Source: Aneurinibacillus aneurinilyticus ATCC 12856
GTDB taxonomy: Bacteria > Bacillota > Bacilli > Aneurinibacillales > Aneurinibacillaceae
Assembly: GCF_000466385.1 (NCBI RefSeq)
Contig: NZ_KE952845.1
Span: forward strand, 1,824-65,823
Reading direction: 5' to 3'
DNA length: 64,000 nt
Shown here: positions 1,261-54,290 of the stretch, piece after piece
Position numbering within the stretch: position 1 is the stretch's first letter
How the letters are laid out: the number at the start of each line of letters is the position of its first letter
Position numbers and translations under genes: made by a program
Notes under the pieces: generated by a model
Seen by the model: only the letters and a program-made list of their open reading frames with translations
Told to the model about the DNA's origin: nothing
Databases searched by the model: none

Positions 1261-2274
1261 TTATTGTAGTCGTTTATCTTTTGTTTGTTTAGAAACCTTG
1301 TCCTGGATAAAATCTTTTACTTCCTGGAGCGATGGCGCGATTGTAACCTTCAGCAACAGTTCGTCGATATATTCATCCTTCGTTAGTTTCTGTATATCTT
1401 CATGTAAAGCTTTTGCAGCGTCTCCAAACTTCGCCTGCAAAAGCACATGTACAGCTTCTCGTTTTCCCTCTTGCCTTCCTTCTTGTCTCCCCTCTTGTCT
1501 CCCCTCTTGTTTTCCTTCTCGTCTTCCTTTCTCATGCCAGGATGTTGTCAATTCCATAATTCGTCCCTCCTCATTAGGATCAAGCTTTTGTAACTCCATG
1601 CGCAAGTGTTGTTCTTCCTCTTCACTCAATTGTAAGTAGGTTTCAAAAAAACCGGTAAGCAATGTCATACGAGCCGGGTCTTGTTCTAACCGTACCAATA
1701 TGCGGAGAAACTCTTTTTTGACTTCGACTCTTTCCTCAGGTGTGTATCCCATTTTGCTTAGTAGTGCAGCCGCTATCGGATTGTCCTGTTGAATATAGTC
1801 TCGCCAGTTTTTTCGCCTCAGTTCCACTTTTAAGAACTGGAATGTCATCACATTGAAGAAAGGGAAGGATATGTGGAGCGTATCAGGTTCTTCCTTAACT
1901 TTATCGTAGCTGAAGATGGCGATCGGCAAAATGCGCCTGCGATATTTTTCATATAGTCGACTAAAATAAATGAACATACGGTCGTGGAAGGAGGTTTGTT
2001 CATACGATTGAGGCTCCACATGAATAATAATGAGACTTTCTTCCCCTCTCAGGTGCGTTTCTACAAGAAGATCGACACGTCGTTTCTCTCCTTTTAGAAT
2101 ATCCGTAAACAGTTCCTCTGATAAAAAAGAGGTATGTTCAAAATCAATGGCTTCATAGGCGTCAGGAAAGAAGAGCGCCATAAACTCTTCAAAAAATGTC
2201 GAAAGGAGCTCCTTAAATAAACGGTCATGATCGGTACGGCCTTGACTATCCGAGAGATTTTCTTCCTTTGACAT
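1261..2274 (-). CDS. Rpn-family recombination-promoting nuclease / putative transposase
   Basis: A 337-residue protein of the Rpn (YhgA-like) family, whose characterised members are PD-(D/E)XK DNA endonucleases that stimulate RecA-independent recombination. The N-terminal half carries the expected core: KRRVDLLVET followed by IIIHVEPQSYEQ, giving the family's D...ExQ arrangement around residues 68-92. Near residues 250-270 it has a run of tetrapeptide units (GRQE/GKQE), encoded by 12-base tandem repeats and typical of this family before the C-terminal tail. The gene is monocistronic on the minus strand, with the ATG just after GGGGGAATCCAA. Members are often lineage-specific and prone to change in repeat number. 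It lies in the accessory stretch at the start of the window. Confidence 0.85.
   Translation of the reverse strand: MSKEENLSDSQGRTDHDRLFKELLSTFFEEFMALFFPDAYEAIDFEHTSFLSEELFTDILKGEKRRVDLLVETHLRGEESLIIIHVEPQSYEQTSFHDRMFIYFSRLYEKYRRRILPIAIFSYDKVKEEPDTLHISFPFFNVMTFQFLKVELRRKNWRDYIQQDNPIAAALLSKMGYTPEERVEVKKEFLRILVRLEQDPARMTLLTGFFETYLQLSEEEEQHLRMELQKLDPNEEGRIMELTTSWHEKGRREGKQEGRQEGRQEGRQEGKREAVHVLLQAKFGDAAKALHEDIQKLTKDEYIDELLLKVTIAPSLQEVKDFIQDKVSKQTKDKRLQ
1460..1531. repeat. In-frame 12-base tandem repeats in the Rpn nuclease gene
   Basis: On the plus strand the unit approximates CCCTCTTGTCTC and recurs about five or six times with variants at the edges, encoding EGRQ-type units on the minus strand. 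The unit length is a multiple of three, so gain or loss would alter linker length without breaking the frame. Confidence 0.7.
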
Positions 2275-2469
2275 TTGGATTCCCCCGTAGATACAATTTT
2301 ATTTTTCATTATATCATGCTTCCCGTAAAGTTGTATTCTGACTATAGACGAGTACAAGGTAATATCGCAGATAAATGCTTTACCTTATGCATTTCTTTAG
2401 AAACAAACTAGCGTTATAATAAAAAAATGGAGTTTTGATAATTCAAAAAAATGAGGAGTATGATTTCCT

Positions 2470-3480
2470 TTGATTATTTCAGAAGACGGTCTCTCTGTTT
2501 ATCCAGTTAAAGTTCCTACAAAATATAACTTACGGTCCTTTAATTTTTATTTACTAGAGGAAGCTGGTTCTTTAACATTGATCGATGCTGGTATAGACTC
2601 TGAAGAATGCTGGGAATGCTTTATGCGGACGATGAATGAAAATGGATATACTCTTCATGACTTGACCCGGATTATTGTTACACATAATCATGAAGATCAT
2701 GTGGGCCTGATTAATCGTATTTCTTCCATAAAAGAAATTCCGCTCTATGCCCATCAAGAATCGATTCATCGCTTGAAAAGGGACAAAGCGTTTTTTTTAT
2801 TACGGATAGAATTTTTTGAACAGCTATATCAAGAAATGGGGTGTGGTGCTGCCGGGGAACAACAGGTTCAAAAGTTGCGGGAGGCTGTACGGAAAAATGA
2901 GAAGAACCGAATTCAGGCAGACATTGTAACGTTTGCTGATGGTGATACAATAGCGGGGATGCAGGTTATAGAAACACCTGGACATTCTTCTGATCATGTG
3001 GTTTTTTTACATGAACAGAAAAAATGGCTTTTCGCTGGCGATCATCTTATTAGTCATATTTCCAGTAACGCGCTTGTCGAACCTGATCGGAATGGCAAAC
3101 GACAATTAACGCTAGTTGAATATGTAGACTCGCTTAAAAAGTGTTTACAGCTTGATGCCGAGATTGTTTATCCTGGCCATGGGGAATTCATCTACAATCA
3201 TAAACAATTGATTACGAAGCGATTACACCGTATTAATGAAAAGGCAGAAAGGATTCTGCGTTTAATCCGAAGCGGAATTTCAACAGCAAATCAATTGGCT
3301 TATGCGTATTATAAAGATAAATATGAAAGCCAGTTCTCATTGGTCATGTCGGAAATTATCGGTCATTTGGATTACTTAGAGACACGGCATAAAGTCCAAA
3401 AAGAGTTGAAAAAAGGTGTGTGGCACTATGATGTGCAACCCGTGAAAGGGGAGGAGGGCTCATATGAATCAAACAATTGA
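2470..3480 (+). CDS. MBL-fold metallo-hydrolase
   Basis: A 336-residue metallo-beta-lactamase-fold hydrolase of the glyoxalase II/RNase Z-like superfamily. The metal-binding motif THNHEDH is at residues 71-77, followed later by TPGHSSDH, a GDH motif and YPGHGE. These supply the usual two-metal ligand set. The C-terminal 90 residues are helical and charged, resembling the winged-helix-like tail of some MBL proteins. The start is a TTG, with GAGGAG 11 bases upstream; an ATG at 2460 is out of frame. A TATAAT at 2415-2420 is a plausible -10. The substrate cannot be read from sequence. Its last codons overlap the start of a nitroreductase remnant. Confidence 0.8.
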   Translation: MIISEDGLSVYPVKVPTKYNLRSFNFYLLEEAGSLTLIDAGIDSEECWECFMRTMNENGYTLHDLTRIIVTHNHEDHVGLINRISSIKEIPLYAHQESIHRLKRDKAFFLLRIEFFEQLYQEMGCGAAGEQQVQKLREAVRKNEKNRIQADIVTFADGDTIAGMQVIETPGHSSDHVVFLHEQKKWLFAGDHLISHISSNALVEPDRNGKRQLTLVEYVDSLKKCLQLDAEIVYPGHGEFIYNHKQLITKRLHRINEKAERILRLIRSGISTANQLAYAYYKDKYESQFSLVMSEIIGHLDYLETRHKVQKELKKGVWHYDVQPVKGEEGSYESNN

Positions 3481-3529
3481 GACGATTCCTGCGCACCGCT
3501 CCATCCGTAAACCGAAGAATAGTCGCTGA
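3464..3529 (+). pseudogene. N-terminal remnant of a nitroreductase / NfrA-like oxidoreductase
   Basis: Behind a strong GGGGAGGAGG site an ATG opens a frame starting MNQTIETIPAHRSIRK and stopping after 21 residues. The motif HRSIRK preceded by an IETI-type helix is the signature start of NADPH-dependent flavin nitroreductases, which are normally 220-250 residues long. No continuation is visible in any frame downstream, so the rest was deleted. The remnant overlaps the stop of the MBL gene, suggesting the two were once co-translated. Confidence 0.6.
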
Positions 3530-3615
3530 CTGCGAGCGGTTCCAAACGATTGTACCTGATTTGATAAGTCGACACATGTTTGTGATGGAGGTAAGAAAAG
3601 AGGGAAGGGCGGTAG

Positions 3616-3729
3616 GCGGGAGCGGTCGGAAAAAGACGCGCTGGCCTTCCTTCTGCCGGGGCGCAGGTTCAGGCTATGAAGCTGTATGGTGCAGAATTTT
3701 ACAGGAAGGGAGAAATGCGTTGCATATGA
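3616..3729 (+). pseudogene. Possible C-terminal remnant of a GNAT acetyltransferase
   Basis: Frame 1 is open here and encodes AQVQAMKLYGAEFYRKGE shortly before its stop. This resembles the last strand-helix of GNAT enzymes of the ElaA type, where an AQ..A..FY...GF..GE pattern is usual. The glycine-phenylalanine turn is not intact and nothing of the acetyl-CoA loop is visible. It lies directly after the nitroreductase remnant, so both may belong to one deletion scar. This is a weak call from pattern alone. Confidence 0.25.
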
Positions 3730-4412
3730 GAAATGTGAGGAGCGACAAAGAAGAAAAGGAGCAAAAAGAGATAGCGAAGGCTACGATTTTTGCGGTATCT
3801 GCTGGAGTTGGTGAGGAGACGGAGCAGATAATTGTTGTTACTACGCCTGATTGGAACAGTCGTCAGGCCCGGCTTCAGGCTTTTGAGAAAGTAGGGGGAA
3901 AATGGGTTCCGGCTCTGCCGCCGATGCCGGCGGTAGTAGGGAAGAATGGATACGCATTGTCTGTGGATAAGAAAGAAGGAGATGCCAAGTCACCCGCAGG
4001 TGTCTACTTCCTCGGAACCGCTTTTGGCACAGCTACAAAACCTGCCGGGGTTACAATGCCTTACAGATTGGTTACACGCCAAGACTACTGGATAGATGAT
4101 AAAACATCCCCCGACTACAATACGTGGGTCCATTATGAAGGCGATCCAAAAAAGAAGTGGAAATCATTCGAGCGTTTGGCTATTCCGTTGTATAAATATG
4201 CGCTGGTGATTCGCTATAATGAAGACCCGGTGATTCCGGGCAAAGGCAGTGCGATTTTTGTGCATATCTGGCGTGGTCCCCAGAGCTACACTGCTGGTTG
4301 CGTGGCGCTGTCTGAAGCGAATGTACTGGCTATAGTAAAATGGCTGGACCCAAAGAAAATGCCAGCGATTGTGCAAGGTCCGGAATCCTTTCTGGCTTCA
4401 TTAGTGAAGTAA
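3720..4412 (+). CDS. L,D-transpeptidase-family protein (YkuD-like)
   Basis: The C-terminal half carries an L,D-transpeptidase-type catalytic motif, HIWRGPQSYTAGCVAL, with His near residue 182 and the nucleophile Cys near 194 of 230. Enzymes of this class form 3-3 cross-links or related bonds in peptidoglycan. The preceding region (VVTTPDWNSRQARLQAFEK, then PAVVGKNGY and SPAGVYFLG) fits the family of stand-alone L,D-transpeptidase-like proteins. The frame stays open back to 3477, but that part overlaps gene remnants. The best-supported start is TTG at 3720, 8 bases after AGGAAGGGAG, with ATG at 3726 as alternative. Family members are normally exported, yet no signal peptide is visible with either start. 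The N-terminus may have been lost in the rearrangement just upstream. Confidence 0.75.
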   Translation: MHMRNVRSDKEEKEQKEIAKATIFAVSAGVGEETEQIIVVTTPDWNSRQARLQAFEKVGGKWVPALPPMPAVVGKNGYALSVDKKEGDAKSPAGVYFLGTAFGTATKPAGVTMPYRLVTRQDYWIDDKTSPDYNTWVHYEGDPKKKWKSFERLAIPLYKYALVIRYNEDPVIPGKGSAIFVHIWRGPQSYTAGCVALSEANVLAIVKWLDPKKMPAIVQGPESFLASLVK

Positions 4413-48461: not shown

Positions 48462-49787
<1,326 letters not shown>

Positions 49788-49938: not shown

Positions 49939-50442
49939 ATGGACGTACGAAAGTCATGGGATGAATATTTCATGGATCTAGCCTATATGGCGGCCACACG
50001 CGCTACATGTCCGCGTCGGCATGTTGGAGCCGTGTTGACCAGAAACAGAAAAGTTCTGGGCACGGCGTACAATGGAAGTCCGAGCGGCGTCGATTCTTGT
50101 CTGGATGTAGGGTGCATGCTGCACAACTATTACGAAACAGACGGGAATGGTGTAATCCAGGAAAAGCAGAAATGCATTCGCACAATTCATGCTGAACAAA
50201 ATTTGCTGCTATTCACTGATCAGGAAGATCGGCAGGGGGCAACAATCTATGTTACCGATCAGCCGTGCTGGACATGTGCCAATCTTATTGCCAATAGTGG
50301 CATTGCAGAAGTGGTCTATCACAGGGCATACGCCAAAGATTACGAGAAGGTTGCACGGCTATTTGCTCAGAAGAACATTGAATTTCGTCAGATGAAGGAA
50401 TACACACCACCGACTGGTGTTAAGCTGGAGTTTGTGGATTAA
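49939..50442 (+). CDS. comEB: Deoxycytidylate deaminase ComEB
   Basis: A 167-residue zinc-dependent dCMP/cytidine deaminase family protein. The catalytic motif HAE is at 84-86 in TIHAEQN and the zinc cysteines are in PCWTC (Cys110 and Cys113). TCPRRHVGAVLTRNRKVLGTAYNG is typical of dCMP deaminases. It is part of the comE locus by position; the enzyme itself is not needed for DNA uptake and probably supplies dUMP. AGAGGGAG precedes the ATG. Confidence 0.93.
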   Translation: MDVRKSWDEYFMDLAYMAATRATCPRRHVGAVLTRNRKVLGTAYNGSPSGVDSCLDVGCMLHNYYETDGNGVIQEKQKCIRTIHAEQNLLLFTDQEDRQGATIYVTDQPCWTCANLIANSGIAEVVYHRAYAKDYEKVARLFAQKNIEFRQMKEYTPPTGVKLEFVD

Positions 50443-50550
50443 GAGAAATTTTTTTATAAAATACACAAAAATATGGTATGGATGTTAAGCAAGGGGGTAA
50501 AGATGTAGCAAGAGGATATATTCTGTTGAACTACGAACGAGGTGATTTCA

Positions 50551-51135
50551 ATGCAACCGAATGTCGCAACGATCCGTGGTGTATGTGATAATTTTCAAGC
50601 TCCGCAGGAAAGAACAGACGATGTGTACCGCATTGTGGAAGAAGCGAAGACGCGCCCCGAAATCACGGTAGAAGAGAAAAAGACAATGCAGGGTACACTG
50701 CTGCTTGGCTTCTATACCGAACACGGTGTTTTCCGCTTAGTCGTACAAGCGGGTCTGCCGATTAAAGGTCGGCTCTATATAAATGGGATTACTGAAGAAG
50801 AAATGGCAATCAACCCTCTTATCCGTTTGTTTTATGGCTCCGTATATTTGATGGGAGCGAGCGGTATGCTTCGCCTCTATGAAGAAGGAGTAAGCAAGGA
50901 TATTCATTTCCGTGAAGGTCGTATTTATGAGAATAACGGATTTGGGGAAGAGAAAGAGTTGGCCAACATTCTGGTAGAGCAATATATTGATCAGCAAATT
51001 GTTGAAGGTCGCATTAATTTTCTGTTGGAGAAGTTGAACGATTGTATGGTGCAGAAGGAAGAACCGAATACGCATATAATTAAGCAGGAATTGTCTGAGT
51101 TAACGGGACAGTGGAATGAACTGCAGAATTTTTAA
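50551..51135 (+). CDS. Conserved-looking hypothetical protein in the com region
   Basis: Not recognised. The 194-residue soluble product begins MQPNVATIRGV, has a predicted beta-rich middle (TLLLGFYTEHGVFRLVVQAGLPIKGRLYING) and a helical end, and lacks signal or membrane segments. Codon use and spacing look normal, and it has a proper ribosome binding site (GAGGTGAT) and its own terminator, so it is very likely a real gene. An in-frame TTG/ATG nine bases upstream is less likely. Position between comEB and comEC suggests nothing firm about function. Confidence 0.65.
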   Translation: MQPNVATIRGVCDNFQAPQERTDDVYRIVEEAKTRPEITVEEKKTMQGTLLLGFYTEHGVFRLVVQAGLPIKGRLYINGITEEEMAINPLIRLFYGSVYLMGASGMLRLYEEGVSKDIHFREGRIYENNGFGEEKELANILVEQYIDQQIVEGRINFLLEKLNDCMVQKEEPNTHIIKQELSELTGQWNELQNF

Positions 51136-51167
51136 AAGGAAAGAGGAGTATACTCTTTCCTTTTTTT
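51134..51167 (+). terminator. Rho-independent terminator
   Basis: Perfect arms AAAGGAAAGAG and CTCTTTCCTTT with a 7-base loop and a long T run; it begins at the stop codon of the preceding gene. Confidence 0.85.
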
Positions 51168-51240
51168 TACATTTAAATTATCTTTTATGATACAATAAAA
51201 TAAAAACAGAGATACATGCTACAAGGGAGAAAGGAAGGGA

Positions 51241-51882
51241 ATGAGGATGGAAATAGTGCTTCCCAGATTAAATCGGCTGGTTCCTTCATTAGAATCAACA
51301 TTTCATAAATTGGTGGAGGAGCAAGGGGAGTTAAGCGAAGCGATACTGGGATGGATAGATGAGCAGGGAACGCCTCGGGCACGCGAAGCGCTTGAGAATG
51401 TAGCCGGTGAACTGCTGGACGTGGCACAGACCTGTATCTCCATGACTTTCGTACTGGAGGATTTGGCGCCGGATGTAAGATTGGAAGAAATGATTGATGA
51501 CCATCTAGCCAAGCTATTGCGTAAGGGATACTTGCATAGCGTAGCTGGAGACATTTATATTACTGTAAATAAAGATGGCTTTCGGGAGCTGAGCTTGCCT
51601 CGATTGGTTATTCCAGGCGTCACGATGGACAGCACGGTGCTGAACATTTCGGTGGCAATTGGACGATTTGCTCAGTGGATTGGCAAGTTTCGTGGTGCAA
51701 GCGGCGAAGTCAGAAGATATACGGATGAACAGATTCTTAAAGGATGCGGCTTGAACTTATTACATATTGCTCAATGCTGTTTTACGATGCTATACATACT
51801 GGAAGAAACATTTTTGATGGATATTGACGTTCTCATGCGTATGCATATAGATAAATTGAAAAGGCGCGGGTACGTGGGATAA
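51241..51882 (+). CDS. MazG-like protein with internal duplication
   Basis: A 213-residue helical protein with two related halves. Residues about 7-105 carry a MazG-type signature, EEQGELSEAI and then ENVAGELLDVAQTCISM, the paired ExxE/ExxD acidic sets that bind magnesium in nucleotide pyrophosphohydrolases. Residues about 130-210 repeat the pattern as GRFAQWIGKF ... GLNLLHIAQCCFTMLYILEE, with the acidic positions lost. The second half may thus be structural. ATG 51241 follows AAGGAAGGG. The stop overlaps the comEC start by one base, so the two are co-translated. Confidence 0.65.
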   Translation: MRMEIVLPRLNRLVPSLESTFHKLVEEQGELSEAILGWIDEQGTPRAREALENVAGELLDVAQTCISMTFVLEDLAPDVRLEEMIDDHLAKLLRKGYLHSVAGDIYITVNKDGFRELSLPRLVIPGVTMDSTVLNISVAIGRFAQWIGKFRGASGEVRRYTDEQILKGCGLNLLHIAQCCFTMLYILEETFLMDIDVLMRMHIDKLKRRGYVG

Positions 51883-54290
51883 TGGTGAGGCAGCGGACGC
51901 TTTTAATTTGTAGTTTATACATGCTGGGCGGACTTGTTTGCGCTTCTCAGTTTGTTCATAGCGTCCGCGCAGGCCTTGGCCTGCTTTTGCTGACAATTGT
52001 GCTTGGGATTTTGCCACTCTGGCTTCAAAAAGAAGTGTTTTCCCGCTCACTTGTTTTGGTAGGTCTGGCTTGTTTGTGCACAGGTTTTATGTATTATATA
52101 TGGACAGAGCAACGCAACACAAGTGTGTTGCCGGAAGCGGCGAATGCGGCCTTTACTGGACGCATTGAGAGCCCTGTGGTTTTTGATGGAAATCGATGTA
52201 AGTTTACCCTGCGCATCAATAGCTTGGAAGACAAGGAGTTGCTGCGCTCGGAAAAGGTCCAAGCCACGCTTTATTTTCGGGATAAAGCATCACGTAACGA
52301 AGCGGAAAAAGTGCTCGGATACGGCACGGAGCTTGCAGGTCCCATAGAATTAATGATACCGTCTTCCCCTACTAACCCGGAATCATTTGACTATCCCGCC
52401 TATCTTCACTGGCAACGGATTCATCGTCTTGGTAAGATTATGGATATGCGCAGTCTTTCCTATCGAGAAGCTAAACTGAATTTTACCGTGGCTATGATGT
52501 CTTCACAACGGTGGCTGGCGGATCGTGTATCCAGTCTGTTTGCGCCAGAGGCAGCTGGCTTGCTTTCCGGGATGCTTCTGGGAGCGGTGGATGATATTGA
52601 CCCGGATACGTATGCAACGTTTTCTTCATTAGGTCTCACGCATATTGTTGCGATTTCTGGACAGCATATTGCACTGCTGAGCGCAGGGGTGCTCTATGTA
52701 TTGCGCTTATGTGGTGTAACAAAGAGGCGAGCCTATATAACGCTTGCATTATTTCTGCCTCTGTATGTAATTATGAGTGGTTCCAGCGCCTCGGCTGTTC
52801 GTGCCCTTATTATGGGTGAATTCGTTTTGCTCGCATTGATTGTAGGCAGGCTTAAAGACGGATGGAATTTGCTAGGCGCTGCATTTTTGCTTATGATAGG
52901 ATACGATCCGTATTACATTCATAATGTAGGATTTCAACTATCCTACCTCGTTACTTTTGGCTTGCTTGTGTTTGTGCCGCCTATTATGAATAAATGTACC
53001 GCCGGATCATTGGCTATAAGAAGTTTGATCGCGGTTACAATTGCGGCGACATTAGTATCGTTTCCGCTAACAATCTACTATTTTCACGTATATTCTTTTC
53101 TATCACCAATGATCAATTTTTTGTTTGTTCCCTTTGTTAGCATATTGATTGCGCCGCTTTCGGTCGTTTCTATCATTTTGGGGAGCGTACATCCAGCTCT
53201 TGGATTTTTGACGTCCAAAATAGTAGATATTCTGTTGCTTCCTGCACTGCGGTTGTTGCGAATCATAGAGCAGGATTATTCGCTGCGATTCGCTTTTGAG
53301 TCGCCTTCGCTATGGTGGATGCTAGGATATTTCGGCTGGCTTATCTTTCTTACTGCATGGTTATATGATAGAATAACCTTTAATTGGAAAACAAAAACAT
53401 GCCTTGTCCTTTTTCCGGCACTTCTATTTGGTATGCTCTTTTTTTCATGGCTGAAAAAAGAAGTTGTGGTTACTTTTTTGGATGTGGGTCAAGGAGATGC
53501 TATCGTAATTGAAACACCTGGACGTACCGTGCTGATTGATGGCGGGGGTTCTCCGCTCCTTTTTGGGGAGCAGGCGTGGGAGAGGCGACGCGAACCGTTT
53601 AATCCGGTCAAATCTACTGTCATCCCCTTTCTGCATGCAAAAGGAATTTCTTCGCTCGATTTAGTTGTTATGACCCACGGTGATAGCGATCATATTGGCG
53701 GTATTTCCTATTTGCTGGAGCATATGCCTGTTCGGCAGGTAATGGTCAATGGATTGCCAGCCCGTACCGAGATTGAAAAAAAAGTGAATGAATTACTTCA
53801 CTATAAACGTATTCCTATATTGAAGGCTAAACAGGGCCAAGTGTGGAGTGAAGAACCTGGCATCGTCTGGCGGGTTCTGAATCCTGTTCGTGTGCTTTCA
53901 CCAGAAGGGGAAGATAATGCATATTCTGTTGTATTATGGCTTGAAGCATACGGGTCAACGTTTCTATTTACCGGTGATCTGGAACAGGAAGGAGAAATGA
54001 GACTATTGCATGAGAAAGCTGTCGGAACAGTGGATGTGCTTAAAGTAGGCCATCATGGGAGCAGAACCTCAACATCTAAGCCCTGGGTGGAAGCTCTTTC
54101 GCCAAAGCTGTCCGTTATCTCGGCCGGAAAGAAGAATCGGTACGGACACCCGCATCGCGAAGTCATAGAAAGATTGGAAACGAATGGGAGCATCATCCTC
54201 CGCACTGATAGATGCGGCGCAGCGGTCGTACGCGTGCGTGAAGGTGCGCTTACATATAAAACAATGGAATCCAATGCTGGATGCAAATAA
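51882..54290 (+). CDS. comEC: Competence DNA channel protein ComEC/Rec2
   Basis: An 802-residue polytopic membrane protein that carries single-stranded DNA across the membrane. Order: N-terminal helices and OB-like DUF4131 region (to about 220), the competence membrane domain with the HIVAISGQHIALLSAG motif near residue 250, further helices to about 510, and a C-terminal metallo-beta-lactamase domain with THGDSDHIGG near 597 and a late VGHHGS. All parts look intact, so the strain should be able to import DNA if its pilus genes are present. Coupled to the MazG-like gene. Confidence 0.95.
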   Translation: MVRQRTLLICSLYMLGGLVCASQFVHSVRAGLGLLLLTIVLGILPLWLQKEVFSRSLVLVGLACLCTGFMYYIWTEQRNTSVLPEAANAAFTGRIESPVVFDGNRCKFTLRINSLEDKELLRSEKVQATLYFRDKASRNEAEKVLGYGTELAGPIELMIPSSPTNPESFDYPAYLHWQRIHRLGKIMDMRSLSYREAKLNFTVAMMSSQRWLADRVSSLFAPEAAGLLSGMLLGAVDDIDPDTYATFSSLGLTHIVAISGQHIALLSAGVLYVLRLCGVTKRRAYITLALFLPLYVIMSGSSASAVRALIMGEFVLLALIVGRLKDGWNLLGAAFLLMIGYDPYYIHNVGFQLSYLVTFGLLVFVPPIMNKCTAGSLAIRSLIAVTIAATLVSFPLTIYYFHVYSFLSPMINFLFVPFVSILIAPLSVVSIILGSVHPALGFLTSKIVDILLLPALRLLRIIEQDYSLRFAFESPSLWWMLGYFGWLIFLTAWLYDRITFNWKTKTCLVLFPALLFGMLFFSWLKKEVVVTFLDVGQGDAIVIETPGRTVLIDGGGSPLLFGEQAWERRREPFNPVKSTVIPFLHAKGISSLDLVVMTHGDSDHIGGISYLLEHMPVRQVMVNGLPARTEIEKKVNELLHYKRIPILKAKQGQVWSEEPGIVWRVLNPVRVLSPEGEDNAYSVVLWLEAYGSTFLFTGDLEQEGEMRLLHEKAVGTVDVLKVGHHGSRTSTSKPWVEALSPKLSVISAGKKNRYGHPHREVIERLETNGSIILRTDRCGAAVVRVREGALTYKTMESNAGCK

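Follow-up and report, generated by a model that had tools for sequence, protein, structure and literature searches.

A tandem MazG-like protein encoded before comEC in Aneurinibacillus, with metal-motif acids and a conserved loop divided between its halves

The window, a stretch of 64,000 nucleotides from Aneurinibacillus aneurinilyticus ATCC 12856 (NCBI RefSeq assembly GCF_000466385.1, contig NZ_KE952845.1, positions 1,824 to 65,823 of the forward strand), contains a gene for a MazG-like protein directly before comEC, and the question that this locus raises is what a putative nucleotide-handling enzyme does beside a gene of DNA uptake. A sequence-only reading had proposed that the protein is duplicated, that its synthesis is tied to that of the DNA channel, and that it might act on nucleotides released from incoming DNA or couple competence to nucleotide stress. 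As argued below, the protein is probably concerned with the management of DNA precursors, not with the uptake of DNA.

The locus and its expression signals

The features of the locus are collected in Table 1. The open reading frame 3' of the tandem gene encodes ComEC (Pfam Competence, E 3e-56), and the start and stop coordinates confirm the reported one-base overlap, the last base of the TAA of the former gene being the first base of the comEC ATG. This overlap recurs in four of the nine genomes of the order in which the tandem gene precedes comEC, while gaps of ~0–10 bases are found in the other five. Upstream of the tandem gene, a hairpin with a T-rich tail is present in all nine (the tail being weak in one), and an extended −10 element of the form TGnTAnAAT in eight, where ~0.01–0.05 are expected per region. 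With these as candidate terminator and promoter, the tandem gene and comEC seem to form one transcription unit in the Aneurinibacillaceae lineage, within which translational coupling is plausible, and in Aneurinibacillus the tandem gene is apparently transcribed separately from comEB and jointly with comEC. The gene for ComEB had been described as lying next door, but it does not do so directly, as both g50542 and the hairpin intervene. The g50542 frame is kept at 72–97% across Aneurinibacillaceae, with or without the tandem gene. Further upstream, at 48486–49787, an open reading frame that presumably encodes an O-acetylhomoserine sulfhydrylase-like enzyme lies between comEA and comEB and splits the usual comE operon, as it does in relatives L012, L014, L015 and L016. 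The genome holds a single copy of the tandem gene; one extra search row (E 0.4) contains stops and is attributed to chance.

Table 1. Features of the tandem MazG-like gene and its surroundings (window coordinates)
Feature	Coordinates	Strand	Remarks
comEB, dCMP deaminase family	49939..50442	+	Pfam dCMP_cyt_deam_1 E 1e-22; HAE and PCxxC conserved
g50542, 197-aa uncharacterised ORF in the comEB–tandem gene interval	50542..51135	+	sub-threshold DUF4388 match only
Terminator-like hairpin and T-tract, between g50542 and tandem gene	51134..51164	+	from sequence
Extended −10 promoter-like TGATACAAT, 5' of tandem gene	51188..51196	+	consensus match only
Tandem MazG-like protein, 213 aa	51241..51882	+	ATG 51241, stop TAA 51880–51882
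Half 1, residues ~5–100, and half 2, residues ~116–212	within 51241..51882	+	homologous halves
Metal motif of half 1, first part, residues 26–30 (EEQGE)	51316..51330	+	E26, E27, E30 invariant in 19 tandem proteins
Metal motif of half 1, second part, residues 57–60 (ELLD)	51409..51420	+	E57, D60 invariant in 19 tandem proteins
Degenerate equivalent of the first part in half 2, residues 138–142 (VAIGR)	51652..51666	+	alignment of halves; EELGE-like in Negativicutes relatives
Half 2 loop GKFRGASGE, residues 148–156	51682..51708	+	G148, K149, G152, S154, G155, E156 invariant in 19 tandem proteins
Degenerate equivalent of the second part in half 2, residues 172–175 (NLLH)	51754..51765	+	alignment of halves
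comEC	51882..54290	+	Pfam Competence, DUF4131, Lactamase_B; ATG at 51882

Two homologous halves with complementary conservation

Smith-Waterman alignment of half 1 with half 2 scored 73, compared to a mean of 24.1 (sd 4.2) and a best score of 45 in 1000 shuffles (z 11.6), and profile–profile comparison of the halves returned a probability of 99.6% at E 2e-24. The internal repeat exceeds chance and the duplication put forward in the sequence-only reading is borne out; in L020, a Selenomonadales relative, the half-versus-half score reaches 131 (z 24). Structure prediction, which had been suggested as a check, gave a mainly helical AlphaFold2 model (pLDDT 90.4, pTM 0.90) with three main helices in each half. 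The likeness to MazG is real, but weak in this protein taken alone, which scores 17.2 bits against Pfam PF03819 (MazG), below the cut-off of 22. Its second half by itself has zero Pfam matches, and NCBIfam offers no sensible family for the protein nor for 34 single-domain members. We place it in the MazG superfamily because relatives pass the PF03819 cut-off, among them the tandem homologue in G012 (23.2 bits) and single-domain L074 (29.6 bits); at E ≤ 0.1, PF03819 is found in 34 of 34 single-domain relatives scanned and in 18 of 19 tandem proteins. PHROG family phrog_5164 matches the protein in two stretches (E 2e-11), hhalign aligns the single-domain relatives to half 1 at E 4e-40 and to half 2 at E 3e-33, and the best PDB sequence match (E 0.009) is 2q73, which we take to be iMazG. 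Foldseek returned no PDB match at E ≤ 0.001 for either the tandem or the single-domain model. In a second structural comparison, with Z values that are modest for helical bundles, the top PDB row for the tandem model was the staphylococcal phage dimeric dUTPase 5myd (Z 8.5, 148 aligned, rmsd 3.8), with C. jejuni dUTPase (Z 6.3), Leishmania dUTPase (6.0) and E. coli MazG (5.2) further down amid unrelated helical rows. The top rows for the single-domain model all belong to this superfamily: T. maritima MazG-related 2yxh (Z 8.8), mouse dCTPase 6sqz (8.3), human DCTPP1 (8.2) and YpjD (8.0).

The metal motif of MazG proteins has the form ExxE-(12–28)-ExxD. It occurs in the tandem protein in half 1 only, as E27QGE30, 26 residues and E57LLD60, and, as had been noticed before, the first half alone keeps its acids: those at E26, E27, E30, E57 and D60 are replaced in half 2 by V138, A139, R142, N172 and H175. 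Both parts of the motif are present in 121 of 122 single-domain relatives (those of 85–150 aa, a few genomes being counted twice). Within one such domain the motifs follow each other in the order EExGEL, GKFRGxSGE and ELLDVAQT, the loop residues being at least 90% conserved in 34 single-domain relatives. In the tandem proteins this set is split between fused halves, and throughout the 25 aligned rows, where some genomes are represented twice, half 1 carries the acids but lacks the loop, which half 2 contains as GKxxGxSGE. In these alignments, conservation is complementary, with acids in half 1 and loop in half 2. The acids of half 2 are retained, as EELGE-like and ELLDIAQ-like motifs, in the tandem proteins of Negativicutes and of a Clostridia MAG, and are gone in those of Aneurinibacillaceae, Ammoniphilus and an Alicyclobacillaceae MAG, as well as in the tandem protein of G135 (L059). 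Values of dN/dS are ~0.02–0.12 for both halves where estimable, many dS values being saturated and omega resting on few pairs, and 65 of 96 columns of half 1 and 62 of 97 of half 2 are invariant among nine genomes. By these measures both halves are under strong purifying selection, and relaxed decay of half 2, which we considered, was not seen, low dN/dS and many invariant columns being at odds with a decaying half.

In a tree of the separated halves, built on a short alignment of 103 columns in which L059 and L022 form long branches, the half-1 rows group together (97/90), as do the half-2 rows (100/99), and the half-2 rows without acids cluster (99/93). Since half-1 and half-2 rows fall on separate branches, one duplication suffices, and by this tree the tandem form is of single origin. 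The present-day sequences would then represent living stages: single-domain proteins that combine acids and loop, tandem proteins of Negativicutes that have acids in each half and the loop in half 2 only, and the lineage of the window, in which only half 1 keeps the acids and only half 2 the loop. The closest parallel is provided by the dimeric dUTPases (PF08761; C. jejuni 1w2y, Leishmania 2yb0, staphylococcal phage 5myd), which are likewise two-repeat all-alpha chains with a metal site in the N-terminal half only, and which have been proposed to descend from a MazG that was duplicated, became fused and lost the catalytic centre of its C-terminal part (PMC12524310 and PMC2954211, both in excerpt). 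The C. jejuni enzyme is described, in the excerpted text of PMC10014863, as binding Mg by E46, E49, E74 and D77, with K175, R182 and K194 from the later part of the chain acting in hydrolysis; this is the same division of labour as the one proposed here, at the level of chain parts rather than of mapped residues. The tandem protein has no match to PF08761 at E ≤ 1, and the tandem profile has none to the dUTPase_2 proteins of two genomes of the order. Since its halves are much closer to single-domain MazG-like proteins and dUTPase_2 was not found, the duplication looks independent of that of the dimeric dUTPases. Canonical MazG, of the E. coli type and as the long MazG of Bacilli, also has two MazG domains per chain, but the active-site acids of EcMazG lie at 171–196, in the second domain (PMC10014863, same excerpt), and those of the tandem protein in the first half. 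The tandem protein encoded before comEC is genuine, conserved and under firm constraint; it belongs to an established enzyme superfamily, and its half-degenerate state, for which intermediates survive today, is unusual.

Genomic company of the family

Members of the family were found in 128 of the 398 genomes of the phylum sample (E ≤ 1e-8), nearly all of them as single-domain proteins of ~100–120 aa, with a full-length match to the tandem model only in G000, G061, G100, G135 and G167. Named tandem relatives come chiefly from Negativicutes and Aneurinibacillaceae, and also from Ammoniphilus, an Alicyclobacillaceae MAG and a Clostridia MAG; the protein of the window is 89% identical to that of A. 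thermoaerophilus and 87% to that of A. danicus. In one genome (G400; second copy, L176) a divergent family member of ~199 aa (E 2e-12) is found beside the single-domain form.

With one locus read for each of the 128 carriers, a same-strand dCMP deaminase (comEB-type) gene lies just upstream of the family member in 83 genomes and in 33 of 45 families, at up to 350 bp in 81 and at 351–900 bp in two, one being the genome of the window with g50542 in between. This comEB-type gene is the commonest neighbour, and dCMP deaminase, a deaminase of an unrelated family, is the strongest genomic partner, within a usual cluster glyA-(upp)-comEB-MazG-wecA/wecB-atp. The earlier remark that the partner is also a nucleotide enzyme is supported. 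ComEC, in contrast, is encoded next to a family member in 1 of the 128, the genome of the window. The other 45 carriers comprise 15 loci with the same cluster and no same-strand comEB within 900 bp upstream, or with the cluster cut by a contig end, four in which the family member precedes a pcrA-like gene, and 26 in other contexts. Presence of a comEB-type gene anywhere in the genome also goes with the family (126 of 128 carriers versus 234 of 270 non-carriers), the Fisher p of 7e-5 being a guide only as related genomes are not independent; the two carriers without it are genomes that are 83% and 85% complete. In named relatives outside Aneurinibacillaceae, comEB lies within 350 bp upstream at L021, L023, L024 and L026, ~1.1 kb upstream at L018 and ~6 kb away at L019, and was not seen in the loci read near L017, L020 (a short contig), L022 and L025. 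None of the loci read encodes a comEB–MazG fusion protein; where a long frame lies upstream, it is not comEB. When 50,697 phage records were searched by tblastn with one single-domain member as query (E ≤ 1e-4), no phage relatives were found, though phrog_5164 exists. In the literature, judged from titles and with subscription papers mostly outside coverage, we found no paper on a MazG–comEB/comEC neighbourhood; papers on MazG together with dCMP deaminase mostly concern phages by title.

Several loci have features of their own. In L065 and L068, from one family, the single-domain relative lies between hisI(E)-like and pcrA-like genes, named from reading. In L081 (~2150–3377) and L101 (~3002–4297), from two other families, two small membrane-protein-like frames of ~147–154 aa precede it with a 4-base overlap. 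In L059 (7630–8217, G135), what reads as a toxin-antitoxin-like pair of short frames sits between the tandem gene and wecB.

A putative dCTP-to-dCMP step and its alternatives

On balance we lean towards reading the protein as a fused pseudo-dimeric NTP pyrophosphohydrolase of the all-alpha class (MazG/dCTPase/dimeric dUTPase), with one composite site, which would convert a deoxypyrimidine triphosphate into the monophosphate ahead of ComEB. Mg would sit at the acids of half 1, with the half-2 loop completing the substrate site across a predicted interface. The substrate would most likely be dCTP or modified dCTP, and the resulting dCMP would be turned by ComEB into dUMP for dTTP synthesis, or else the step would serve to clear damaged dCTP. 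A comparable route is described for human cells, where DCTPP1 supplies dCMP to dCMP deaminase (dCTP to dCMP to dUMP to dTMP; PMC7162842, in excerpt); dCTPase, DCTPP1 and iMazG are structural neighbours of the single-domain model and, unlike the tandem protein, are not fused. The closest known counterparts, the single-domain MazG-like proteins encoded beside dCMP deaminase in Bacillota (PF03819, ~103–120 aa), share with it the family, the acidic motif, the loop and the comEB neighbourhood. Against this pyrimidine reading, 30 of the 128 carriers have the gene in other contexts without comEB just upstream, and in Aneurinibacillus its apparent transcription with comEC and separately from comEB also counts against a functional pairing with ComEB. 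A gene of the trimeric dUTPase family and canonical MazG (in the genome of the window a separate 501-aa protein encoded elsewhere, and found in the order as well) are already present, so the need for the tandem protein is not obvious. More tentatively, with doubt slightly outweighing belief, it could be a second, independent case of a MazG homodimer gene that duplicated, fused and lost its spare site, the composite site making dCMP for a dedicated dCMP deaminase in a two-enzyme dCTP-to-dUMP module found across Bacillota. If so, a family without an NCBIfam name among the members scanned would gain a pathway, equivalent in bacteria to the human route to dTTP by way of DCTPP1, and the stepwise complementary losses would provide a natural series from symmetric homodimer to asymmetric single-site chain.

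The main alternative to this dCTP-to-dUMP pathway is a general house-cleaning pyrophosphatase for damaged dNTPs such as 5-OH-dCTP, which hands nothing over to ComEB and merely resides in a housekeeping cluster. The preference of mycobacterial MazG for 5-OH-dCTP (over dCTP) and 2-OH-dATP (PMC3855555, in excerpt) is in line with such a role, as are the four carriers in which the relative precedes a pcrA-like gene, but by itself it leaves the specific adjacency to dCMP deaminase unexplained, and we hold it to be rather unlikely. We regard as improbable that the protein is a catalytically dead tandem scaffold, sensor or regulator, for instance of ComEB: neither half is complete if acids and loop must share a half, and the Pfam score is under the cut-off, but neither the half-1 acids nor the half-2 loop vary among 19 tandem proteins, and dN/dS is low in both halves.

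The pathway reading also deals with comEC: the tandem gene lies in the comEB–comEC interval of the comE locus, and this position would account for the adjacency. The tandem gene is present in 10 of 15 genomes of the order and stands directly before comEC in nine of these ten, as it does at an additional locus, L015, where comEB directly precedes it. Two genomes of the same family (G008 and G009) have comEB, g50542 and comEC without any tandem gene, and in the other four genomes of the order that were checked comEB and comEC lie within ~0.5–1.5 kb of each other. Since the interval exists without the tandem gene, this gene lies in, or was lost from, a pre-existing interval, and in Ammoniphilus it is located away from comE. 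The proposed tie to the DNA channel is therefore reasonable within this lineage, where comEC comes next in nine of ten carriers and a common unit is likely, and is not supported in general, since of the 128 carriers in the phylum sample 83 have comEB and 1 has comEC as neighbour; conservation beside comEC is limited in the same way. Still, a role in competence as a nucleotide enzyme linked to ComEC, which would process channel-released nucleotides or connect nucleotide stress with competence, would fit the order-wide position, the overlap in four of nine genomes with short gaps in the rest, the shared promoter-like site and upstream terminator, and the effect of ComEB on transformation in B. 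subtilis (PMC12236230, in excerpt). The single comEC neighbour in the phylum sample, the location in Ammoniphilus and the comE loci of G008 and G009 speak against it, and we consider it quite improbable. No evidence was found for action on nucleotides released from incoming DNA, conserved presence with DNA-uptake genes, as expected of a com gene product, was not seen in the phylum sample, and a competence role is without support outside this order. A competence-specific family as general role was rejected, given comEC adjacency in 1 of 128. For competence research, the location of a gene next to comEC may owe more to synteny with comEB than to function.

A gene matching PF00692 is present in 15 of 15 genomes of the order and in 8 of 8 named ones. 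This family can also match dCTP deaminase, which the weakest matches, those of G416 and G417, may be. That the protein is a missing housekeeping enzyme, as the sole dUTPase of the cell (dimeric dUTPases have the same duplicated architecture; PMC12524310, in excerpt) or as a substitute for HisE (a MazG-family protein replaces it in Desulfovibrio; PMC5764234, in excerpt), is very unlikely: a stand-in for absent dUTPase is disfavoured by these PF00692 genes, and one for HisE by the strong PF01503 (HisE) match found in 14 of the 15 genomes of the order, that of the window included (E 6.5e-24).
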